Source of the DNA: a bacterium
GTDB lineage: Bacteria; CAIJMQ01
Assembly: GCA_023135785.1 (NCBI GenBank)
Contig: JAGLSL010000049.1
Coordinates: forward strand, 1 to 41,210
Length of the DNA: 41,210 nucleotides
Direction: 5' to 3'
Made by a program: the position numbers and the translations under genes
Shown: positions 6,536-36,022 of the stretch, piece by piece
Layout: every line of letters begins with the position of its first letter
How positions within the stretch are numbered: position 1 is the stretch's first letter
Notes under the pieces: generated by a model
Told to the model about the DNA's origin: nothing
Databases searched by the model: none
Seen by the model: only the letters and a program-made list of their open reading frames with translations

Positions 6536-6563
6536 TTTCCTAACCAGAAGACAGAAAATAAGT

Positions 6564-6723
6564 TAGAAATAAATTGAAATACTGTTGAAATATTTTGTCT
6601 TTATCATTAGTTTTTTGAAGTTATAGTATGTAATTTTTTTAGTTTTCAATCCTCTAACAATATATATCCATTTATATCTACCGTATATCTATGTATTTCC
6701 ATGTATCGCTATTGTATATCTAT
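6564..6723. repeat. Left arm of a 160-bp inverted repeat
   Basis: Positions 6564-6723 are the reverse complement of 8497-8656, with one mismatch (6654 against 8566) and no gap by direct base-by-base comparison. The arm has a unique core (6590-6660) flanked by simple AT-rich strings: TTGAAATA-type on one side and GTATATCTA / GTATTTCCATG on the other. The two arms enclose 1.77 kb with the ANTAR regulator and endonuclease III genes. It occupies most of the spacer downstream of the DUF1846 gene and the ANTAR gene, which converge here. Confidence 0.93.
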
Positions 6724-6754
6724 ATACGTCTATTATATTTCGGTTGTATTTCTG

Positions 6755-7453
6755 TCATCTGTCTTTCACTTCATAACTGATAATAAGAGATTCTGCAATT
6801 TCTTTCATTTGTTTTCTTGTTTTCATCGAGTATTTTCTCATTAAATTGTATGCCGCATCCTCGCTTAAACCTTGTTCCTTCATAAGGATTCCTTTTGCCT
6901 TTTCAACTTTCTTGCGTGTTTGAAGCTCTTCTTTCATAACCTGAGTTTCAAATACAAGCCGTAGATTATCTATTACAATAGCTGCCTGATTTGCTATCGA
7001 TTCTAAAATGTTGATTTCCGATGGCGTAAATTCATGTTTTTGGGAAGTGTAAAAATTCAAGACACCAATTAGGGAACCCGTTGCATTAAGCGGCAAAGAA
7101 AGAAGCGAGCACAGCCCTTCTGCTTTTGCGATATCTTGGTTGATATAAAAAGGGTCTTTTCTTACGTCAGCAGAAATATACAGCTTATTCTCTTTGGCTA
7201 CTTTTCCGGCTATGCCTTCGCCTAGTTTGATTGGGAGTTTTTTCAGATATTGTTTGCTGACCGATTGAGTCGCCTTGATGAAAAGTTCGCATTTTTCGGC
7301 ATCAAGAAGCATAAGAGAACAAATTTTAAATCCCATAGCCTCTGCAGTAAGCGTGACTATCAATTTTAAAATATCTTCCGTATATCTCTGCGAGGTTATA
7401 GCATAAGATATGCGGGAAAGAGCTTCTAACTGTTTTTCTAATTCTTTAGCCAT
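6755..7453 (-). CDS. GAF-ANTAR RNA-binding antitermination regulator
   Basis: 232 residues. The N-terminal GAF sensor domain spans about 20-165 (LGEGIAGKVAKENK, LSLPLNATGSLIGVLNFY, ILESIANQAAIVIDN). The C-terminal ANTAR domain spans about 170-225 (LQTRKKVEKAKGILMKEQ, then DAAYNLMRKYSM). ANTAR domains bind paired hairpins in nascent RNA and prevent termination, so this is probably a ligand-controlled antiterminator; the ligand and the targets cannot be read from sequence. It is transcribed away from nth, and both lie between the 160-bp inverted arms. The start ATG has no clear Shine-Dalgarno. No partner kinase is nearby. Confidence 0.9.
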   Translation of the reverse strand: MAKELEKQLEALSRISYAITSQRYTEDILKLIVTLTAEAMGFKICSLMLLDAEKCELFIKATQSVSKQYLKKLPIKLGEGIAGKVAKENKLYISADVRKDPFYINQDIAKAEGLCSLLSLPLNATGSLIGVLNFYTSQKHEFTPSEINILESIANQAAIVIDNLRLVFETQVMKEELQTRKKVEKAKGILMKEQGLSEDAAYNLMRKYSMKTRKQMKEIAESLIISYEVKDR

Positions 7454-7782
7454 GCTTTATTAATGTAAAATGCAAAAATCAAATATAAAAATTACATATA
7501 AAAATGTAAATAGGATACCCTAAATCACTAAGATACAAGATACAAATAAATTCCAATATTCAATAACCAATTACCAAACTTTCTGCTCAAGTGTCTTTTA
7601 GTTATTGTATCTCAGTGTTTGGTTATTTAATTTTTGATTTGTCATTTTCCACCTAGAAATCCAAAGGATTTCCGGGACCAAAGTCCTTGAGATTGCCTTG
7701 CAATCTCTAAGGGCATTTTAATTCTTGATTTTTGATATCTTATTTGCAATATTATCACACTCCGAACTTATATGTCTAAAAG
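7454..7782. other. Divergent intergenic region with nested AT-rich palindromes
   Basis: This spacer between the divergent ANTAR and nth genes holds no protein or RNA gene that I can support. It contains partly complementary AT-rich strings: AAAATGCAAAAATCAA near 7470 faces TTGATTTTTGATATC near 7724, and CAATAACCAATTACCAAAC near 7560 faces GTTTGGTTATT near 7617. Inside these lies the structured repeat at 7652-7714. The nth promoter begins at 7783. Confidence 0.6.
7652..7714 (+). repeat. Multi-hairpin dispersed repeat, copy A
   Basis: Three consecutive hairpins: GAAATCC AAA GGATTTC, GGAC CAAA GTCC and GAGATTG CCTTG CAATCTC, closed by CCTAG near one end and CTAAGG at the other. The sequence aligns along its whole length with the reverse complement of 20251-20311. 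The stems of the two copies differ by paired changes (C-G against T-A in the first stem, G-C against A-T in the last). Confidence 0.8.
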
Positions 7783-7811
7783 TTGACGTTAATATCCCTT
7801 CACTATAGAAT
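7783..7811 (+). promoter_or_regulatory. Sigma-70 type promoter for nth
   Basis: A -35 box TTGACG (7783-7788) and a -10 box TAGAAT (7806-7811) are separated by exactly 17 bp. Transcription would begin near 7818, just before the GGAG ribosome-binding site at 7819-7822. This argues for the ATG at 7832 as the nth start, rather than the GTG at 7817. Confidence 0.65.
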
Positions 7812-7831
7812 AGTTTGTGGAGTTTAAAAAA

Positions 7832-8479
7832 ATGAGTCTAAAAACAGAAAGAATAGAGGAAATAGTAAAAATTCTAAGGGCAAGTTATCCCAACCTAAAA
7901 ACTTCTTTAAAATATAAAAAGCCTTTTGAACTTTTAGTCGCAACTATCCTCTCCGCGCAATGCACCGATGTGAGAGTTAATCAATTAACACCCTCGCTTT
8001 TTAAAAAATATCCGAGTATTGAAGGCTTTGCAAGCGCAAGACAAGAAGAATTGGAAAAAGACATTTATTCAACAGGATTTTATAGAAATAAAGCTAAAAA
8101 TATTATCGGAACAGCCAAAAAGCTATTAGAAGATTTTAATGGTAATATCCCGGACAATATGGCGGATTTAATTACTTTGCCCGGAGTGGCAAGAAAGACC
8201 GCAAATGTAGTGCTTTCCTCAGCTTTTAAGAAAGCGGAAGGAATAACAGTAGATGTGCATGTAAAAAGACTTTCTGAGCGGTTAGAACTGAGTAAAGAAA
8301 AAACTCCTGAAAAAATTGAACGGGACTTAATGCATACAGTTCCTAAAAAATACTGGATGGAGATAAGTTATTTTCTTATAGACCACGGCAGAGCAATTTG
8401 CAAAGCAAGAAAACCATTGTGCCTGAAATGTCCTATAAAGCACCTGTGCTCTTCTGCGGGGAAAATCAATATAAAATAG
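7832..8479 (+). CDS. nth: Endonuclease III (DNA glycosylase/AP lyase)
   Basis: 215 residues from the chosen ATG. The helix-hairpin-helix LPGVARKTANVV carries the catalytic lysine region, and the catalytic aspartate lies in VDVHVKRLSERL. A C-terminal 4Fe-4S site reads C-X6-C-X2-C-X5-C (CKARKPLC..C.....C). It removes oxidised pyrimidines and nicks abasic sites in base-excision repair. A GTG 15 bp upstream is in frame, but the promoter and the GGAG site 10 bp before ATG favour 7832. The gene is a single unit with its own promoter, lying inside the 160-bp inverted repeat pair. Confidence 0.96.
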   Translation: MSLKTERIEEIVKILRASYPNLKTSLKYKKPFELLVATILSAQCTDVRVNQLTPSLFKKYPSIEGFASARQEELEKDIYSTGFYRNKAKNIIGTAKKLLEDFNGNIPDNMADLITLPGVARKTANVVLSSAFKKAEGITVDVHVKRLSERLELSKEKTPEKIERDLMHTVPKKYWMEISYFLIDHGRAICKARKPLCLKCPIKHLCSSAGKINIK

Positions 8480-8496
8480 AAATATGATGGATATAG

Positions 8497-8656
8497 ATAG
8501 ATATACAATAGCGATACATGGAAATACATAGATATACGGTAGATATAAATGGATATATATTGTTAAAGGATTGAAAACTAAAAAAATTACATACTATAAC
8601 TTCAAAAAACTAATGATAAAGACAAAATATTTCAACAGTATTTCAATTTATTTCTA
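8497..8656. repeat. Right arm of the 160-bp inverted repeat
   Basis: Reverse complement of 6564-6723 with one difference. It begins 17 bp after the nth stop codon and ends 51 bp before the AddB-like gene. Its outer flank continues with degenerate TATTTCAAT strings up to 8700, which are not shared with the left arm at high identity. The copy thus forms the whole spacer between nth and the next gene. Confidence 0.93.
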
Positions 8657-8707
8657 TTGTATTTCAAAGGGGTGTTTTAATTATATTTCAATTTATATCA
8701 AAAGAGT

Positions 8708-11695: not shown

Positions 11696-12018
11696 AGTTA
11701 CAAAAAAGAAACCAACGGTTTTCTCTCCTTACATTTCTCTTGAAATGTAACAGGGGGACTATGGGTTATCGTTAATATAAAACAATTTGCAGTTGCCGAT
11801 TGAACAGCATGGTTAAAAGATATACGATAGATATAAATGGATATACATAGAAATACATGGATATACAACGGATATACAGTGAAAATACATAGAGATATGT
11901 AGAGAGACGATTTATTTCAACATATTTCTATCTATTTCAATCATATTTCTTTTTTATGTATTTCGATTTATTTCTAATTTCATTATTTTATTGTAGTTGC
12001 TGATTTATCAGCTCATCT
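11696..12018. other. Intergenic region with hairpin and AT-rich degenerate repeats
   Basis: Convergent spacer without a gene that I can support. A perfect hairpin TTACATTTC TCTT GAAATGTAA lies at 11729-11750 but lacks a T-tract. From about 11816 to 11985 the sequence repeats GATATAC, GATATAAATG and GAAATACATG units, followed by TATTTCTA / TATTTCAAT units. This is the same two-part layout as the 160-bp inverted arms, but without their unique core. Confidence 0.7.
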
Positions 12019-17717: not shown

Positions 17718-17836
17718 GTTGACGTCTTGAAACTGGCGGTTAACCTCTATACATGGAATGACCATGGGGAATCAAGATGTCAACCCGTAATAAAATATAT
17801 TTTAAACGGGTTTAGTTCATGTCGTCCGCCTGGGCA
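17718..17836 (+). promoter_or_regulatory. ZTP/ZMP riboswitch (pfl motif)
   Basis: A 13-bp closing stem GTTGACGTCTTGA (17718-17730) / TCAAGATGTCAAC (17772-17784), with one G-U pair, surrounds the conserved ACTGGCG (17732-17738), an inner hairpin CATGG / CCATG and the GGGGA motif (17766-17770). A linker hairpin CCCGT / ACGGG (17784-17810) leads to the conserved 3' domain CCGCCTGGGCA (17826-17836). These are the two invariant parts of the pfl RNA motif, which senses ZTP/ZMP. It lies 86 bp before a formate C-acetyltransferase gene, the gene class that named the motif. No T-tract terminator is seen; the Shine-Dalgarno lies in CTCCGGGAG, so control may be at translation. Confidence 0.88.
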
Positions 17837-17922
17837 AACACGAGTTGTTTACCGGGACGGGCTCACCTCGCTGGCGAAGCAGGCAAAAACCTTCCAAAGG
17901 TCAATAACTCCGGGAGAGAAAA

Positions 17923-35906: not shown

Positions 35907-36022
35907 AATAAAGATAAATGTAAAAATCAAAAAGTGGATAGAAATATAATTGAAATAAATAGAGATACATTGAAATACATTGTTTTTCTACTACGTATTT
36001 CTATTTTTAATTTTTGAATTTA
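35907..36022. other. Short AT-rich repeat spacer
   Basis: From 35935 to 36010 the spacer contains GAAATATAATTGAAATA, GAGATACATTGAAATACATTG and ACGTATTTCTATTT units. These resemble the degenerate arms of the repeats at 6564, 8497 and 11816. No gene is seen. Confidence 0.55.

Follow-up and report, generated by a model that had tools for sequence, protein, structure and literature searches.

Sequence analyses revealed that two nearly identical inverse arms, which surround a GAF-ANTAR gene and the endonuclease III gene nth, are each the inner part of a separate element of about 187 bp and that this element is one copy of a dispersed family. The arms lie in the window, a 41,210-nucleotide stretch of bacterial DNA (contig JAGLSL010000049.1, assembly GCA_023135785.1). 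Sequence comparison indicates that each arm is most probably a copy of a mobile element that is non-autonomous and belongs to the IVS/S23 type. The genome contains a family of copies whose sites are polymorphic between relatives, the order of the enclosed genes is unchanged, resident copies were apparently overwritten, the copies are biased to one strand, and the array motif matches the clade of the IVP (S23, PF05635) protein.

The arms are parts of two separate elements

In an ungapped inverse comparison, the arm at 6564-6723 and the arm at 8497-8656 are identical at 159 of 160 positions, and the sole mismatch is found at 6654 (C vs T). The near-perfect 160-bp inverted repeat described in an earlier note on this DNA is thereby confirmed, and chance was excluded by shuffled and reversed controls. 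At lower identity (94%) the match extends over 194 nt, 6556-6749 and 8471-8664. At both edges of the 160 bp the identity drops abruptly, and the 10-bp array pattern runs on outside. The arms are the top-scoring pair among 45 copies (328); the runner-up, with a score of 311, involves a copy on contig C69. The enclosed genes are those that had been recognized before, an ANTAR regulator (GAF-ANTAR protein, 6755..7453, minus strand) and endonuclease III (nth, 7817..8479, plus strand), and both are host genes outside the element. The spacer between them (7454-7816) is 363 bp long here vs 168 bp in the congener G001, and its additional part consists of other AT-rich short-period repeats (AAGATAC, AATAACCAA / TTGGTTATT). 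Rfam searches at the arms matched no known RNA family. Elsewhere in the window, a ZMP/ZTP riboswitch (pfl) with a score above the Rfam gathering score is located at 17719-17842 on the plus strand.

Side-by-side comparison of the copies revealed the plan of the element: GAWATA units that are each followed by four free bases and recur every 10 bp, then a core, then a converging reverse array. Element 1, a long form that holds the arm 6564-6723, occupies 6566..6752 on the minus strand, and its 5' end is located 2 bp past the ANTAR stop codon. Its 70-bp core is at 6593..6662 and its seven-unit array, which is the 5' array in the sense direction, at 6663..6752, both on the minus strand. Element 2, also a long form, holds the arm 8497-8656 and occupies 8479..8665 on the plus strand, starting at the nth stop codon. 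It consists of a left array of seven units of GAWATA and four bases (8479..8557, plus strand), a 70-bp core that differs by one base from that of element 1 (8558..8627, plus strand), and a right converging array of four units (8628..8665, minus strand; TATTTC and four bases on the plus strand). The window has a third element, a short form with a 15-bp gap (11819..11949, plus strand), which is missing at the orthologous site of G001, and a solo array of the GAWATA-type 10-bp unit (35941..35977, plus strand). None of the window copies carries an ORF.

When the arm was used as a BLAST query against the genome, 74 pieces spread over many contigs were found. The array pattern gave 64 matches in the genome and 0 in the reversed control. 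The array detector identified 45 elements with converging arrays as well as 18 solo arrays, counts that refer to the examined stretches of the draft 1.34-Mb genome, and it found no arrays on three shuffled windows. In roughly half of the elements, the short forms, the core measures about 18 bp; most others are long forms with a core of about 70 bp. The elements are intergenic between protein genes and not inside an rRNA gene. They are short, non-coding, multi-copy and polymorphic for presence and absence, as is required of a MITE. A candidate target duplication, a 9-bp repeat, was seen at one clean site (C41:4648), and none was seen at the other sites inspected. Identity with REP/BIME was rejected because the arrays are AT-rich with 10-bp units and REP/BIME sequences are GC-rich hairpins of 20-40 bp with a guide tetranucleotide. 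A second dispersed palindrome, GTAGTTGCCGATTNATCGGCA, often adjoins array elements of this genome, G000 (L004, L010, L016, L218), and it may be REP-like, as G000 encodes four Y1-transposase proteins. In addition, several arrays have a GC-rich palindrome, CCTGCCCGC...GCGGGCAGG, inside them or at their end, where it seems to be nested (L008, L012, L017, L023 of G000).

Copies mostly lie in the sense direction behind stop codons

Orientation was assigned by the core, and the strand test took open reading frames with a minimum length of 90 aa as genes. Elements between tandem genes run with transcription in 24 of 26 cases (p=1e-5), and 30 of 36 elements are co-oriented with their upstream gene. 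For about half of the co-oriented elements, the stop codon of the upstream gene is located within roughly 15 bp of the start. Arm 1 sits behind the ANTAR stop codon and arm 2 behind the nth stop codon, and ANTAR and nth are divergent. Thus, the arms are inverse because sense-strand copies sit behind the stop codons of divergent genes.

The strong sense-strand bias and the placement directly past stop codons would also fit host 3'-end or intercistronic RNA elements that are under selection for processing, termination or stability and whose link to the IVP is merely historical. This is the main rival explanation. However, many orthologous sites in the congener are without the element or have a different array motif, and the same arrays are found around one IVP clade in other phyla, so that we consider it unlikely. 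A selfish origin of the elements and their later use are compatible. The 10-bp period and the many intergenic copies could be taken to mean that the arrays are chromosomal sites bound by a nucleoid or segregation protein of the host, in phase with the 10-bp helix turn. This is highly improbable, as related IVP loci have 7-bp periods, copies are absent at orthologous sites, and symmetric DNA sites would not predict a strand bias.

Resident short forms were apparently overwritten at both arm sites

The genome was compared with the congener G001 and with two more relatives, G002 and G003, and the in-depth comparison of orthologous sites was made with one congener. For 27 of the 45 element sites, a matching site was found in G001. 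The GAAATA element is missing at most of these, several of them cleanly, and some are occupied by another array motif. At the same intergenic site, G000 can have a GAAATA element (L053, L006, L048) and G001 a heptamer-array element of another motif (L293, L280, L317). In 1.05 Mb of G001, 8 elements were counted, none of them with a long core.

The earlier note had suggested a comparison of gene order in relatives, and the order and orientation of ANTAR and nth proved to be identical in G001, G002 and G003. This bears on two proposals of that note. At 160 bp, near-identical inverse repeats have a sufficient length for RecA-type exchange, and the arms could in this respect allow the ANTAR-nth segment to invert as a switch. 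However, this assembly and all three relatives have the same orientation, no recombinase gene was seen in the first reading, and strand-biased placement accounts for the geometry. A switch is therefore very doubtful; occasional inversion by RecA may nevertheless occur. The second proposal was that the arms are the terminal inverted repeats of one non-autonomous element of about 2 kb, as two genes are enclosed by inverse arms. This is refuted by the relatives, since G002 and G003 have both genes together in place without the arms, and we give it next to no credence. Single arm copies are also common: the note had regarded many unpaired copies as an observation against its proposals, and they are present within this genome.

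At both arm sites G001 has a short-form element, and the outer units of its arrays agree with the units that lie beyond the 160 bp here. In G002 and G003, both arm sites are free of GAAATA elements. It appears that in this lineage the inner part of both resident short forms was replaced by one long-form segment. Overwriting of both residents by the same segment would lead to the 159/160 identity of the arms. Judged from these comparisons, the arm pair bears the mark of gene conversion or of comparable copying and not that of a single 2-kb transposon. The earlier suggestion of recent copying or gene conversion is thus upheld by the closest pair of 45 copies and by the short forms with the same outer units in G001.

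IVP genes are found between the same arrays

Two array loci in other phyla were found to bracket a 23S_rRNA_IVP (PF05635) gene. G001 has one PF05635 gene, which was found via a family search and not via the array, and it is located between GAAATA arrays. Thirteen of 27 genomes picked solely by the array have an IVP that is 54-65% identical to a Bacteroidales IVP (the query counted). Among 386 unselected genomes, the sole member of this clade is the G001 IVP, itself the query there. GAAATA arrays are present at 13 of 14 clade members vs 0 of 24 more distant IVPs; the former count is partly conditioned, because all clade members except that of G001 came from array-picked genomes, and the independent side of the test is the 0/24 together with the tree. 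At the remaining member of the clade, the array is of a related type, TTGATATTGA. When mapped onto a tree of 72 IVPs, the array label marks one clade (support 100/97) and a single outlier, whose array differs and is of the GATATA type. The label changes 2 times vs 13 times when shuffled, and 0 of 500 shuffles were as low. The GAAATA IVP clade spans Bacteroidota, two CPR groups, an Omnitrophota bin and a Chloroherpeton bin. As several phyla share one IVP clade, transfer between phyla is likely.

This genome, which is 96% complete, yielded no IVP gene from the matching clade. A phage or plasmid home of the clade was rejected, since viral contigs had no relative and plasmids only a distant match of 34%. 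The arrays, that is, the ends, are common to the window elements and their IVP-bearing relatives, and autonomy conferred by the IVP gene is putative.

IVPs of other clades have arrays of their own, with a period of 7 or 10 bp. Significant complementary inverted flanks were found at 22 of 45 IVP loci; among neighbouring genes they occurred at 2 of 62, and among random genes of G001 at 9 of 256. About half of the IVP loci are below this strict threshold. In 19 of 23 two-sided IVP cases, the period is common to both flanks; neighbouring genes are unusable as controls for the period, because their flanks contain the same arrays. On finished cyanobacterial plasmids, S23 genes are located between GGGTGTA, GGGAGTA, GGGAACA or GGGAAAA heptamers and their reverse, and 7 of 11 are significant. 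Most other motifs in G001 have counts above those of shuffles, but their converging pairs are too few to use; the count of the GTTAA motif is not above shuffles. Two nearby IVP genes of different clades, at 1440-1872 and 2204-2675 of L249 (minus-strand coordinates), have their own short-period flank motifs. On plasmid pPg_01 of Pseudanabaena galeata (L361), an IVP gene is located between cas6 and cas4, and its flanks are long perfect AAAGCTA and AAAGCCA arrays that are direct, not inverse.

Origin and possible movement of the elements

Three variants of the long-form core align with the left and the right end of the G001 element that bears the IVP gene (0-1 of 200 shuffles at either end), in alignments that are short and AT-rich; the commonest variant of the core aligns mainly with the left end. 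In the simplest reading, the long form would have arisen when a gene-bearing element lost its interior.

We propose the following mechanism. Complete relatives carry a gene for the four-helix-bundle S23/IVP protein between the arrays, and this genome has gene-less forms, the short one with an 18-bp core and the long one with a 70-bp core that resembles an internal deletion. Copies would settle in the sense direction, mostly just past stop codons, and the older short forms at both arm sites would have been overwritten by gene conversion or equivalent copying. The IVP would recognise the arrays, possibly at the RNA level, and the IVP or a host activity would mobilise the elements. Retro-mobility by a resident reverse transcriptase was rejected, as none was found in the phylum (seven genomes).

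In core-oriented copies, complementarity between the left and right arrays of the same copy is not above that across copies, and a conserved hairpin or IVS-like stem was rejected on this basis as a maintained stem. As no conserved stem is supported, the array units look like individual, putative binding sites. The TRAP ring binds its RNA one unit per subunit. By analogy, our preferred hypothesis is that an IVP ring would bind one array unit per subunit, to which we give about even chances. Solved IVP relatives have five chains, and Xcc0516 has been reported as a homopentamer (PMC4990558).

More broadly, S23/IVP four-helix-bundle genes with clade-specific, converging arrays of 7 or 10 bp, together with gene-less sense copies that settle behind stop codons and overwrite residents, may form a mobile class across phyla that includes cyanobacterial heptamers, Xanthomonas GGGAATC and rRNA IVSs. 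We see the case for and against this class as evenly balanced. PF05635 proteins are widespread and without known function, and intergenic heptamer arrays have been recorded without an accepted explanation. The match between array motif and protein clade offers one testable hypothesis for both, namely that the protein recognises its own repeat. Several unexplained bacterial repeats would thus be tied to one orphan protein family, the movement of IVS-like elements would gain a setting for study outside rRNA, and a type of intergenic repeat that is common in metagenome assemblies would be explained.

Comparison with known systems

We found no paper in the open-access literature that joins IVP/S23 genes to intergenic arrays. 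Avd, a protein of diversity-generating retroelements, is a reported PF05635 homologue (PMC10053308). However, Avd partners a reverse transcriptase and template/variable repeats, and no reverse transcriptase is present in the seven genomes from this phylum. Like MITEs, the elements are short, multi-copy, intergenic and apparent deletion derivatives of a gene-bearing element, but they have arrays of short units as ends, no transposase and no clear target duplication.

The heptamer repeats, cyanobacterial STRR and Xanthomonas GGGAATC, are also degenerate short-period arrays that often form converging pairs (PMC4692102). In Xanthomonas campestris, which is the source of the IVP structure 2gsc, 70 converging GGGAATC pairs have been described (PMC4692102). 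The heptamer repeats have a 7-bp unit and other motifs, whereas the window elements have a 10-bp unit. They were earlier discussed as quadruplex-forming or simple repeats (PMC4692102 for GGGAATC). On cyanobacterial plasmids they flank S23 genes.

Finally, the 23S rRNA IVS can be compared. Unlike rRNA IVSs, the window elements are located between protein genes and have no ORF, a 10-bp unit and no maintained stem. In the Coxiella burnetii IVS, heptamers precede the S23 ORF (PMC4990558). Coxiella-type IVSs and the element family described here, with its gene-bearing relatives included, are alike in the IVP/S23 ORF, the adjacent short tandem repeats, the terminal inverted sequences and the suspected selfishness (PMC4990558).
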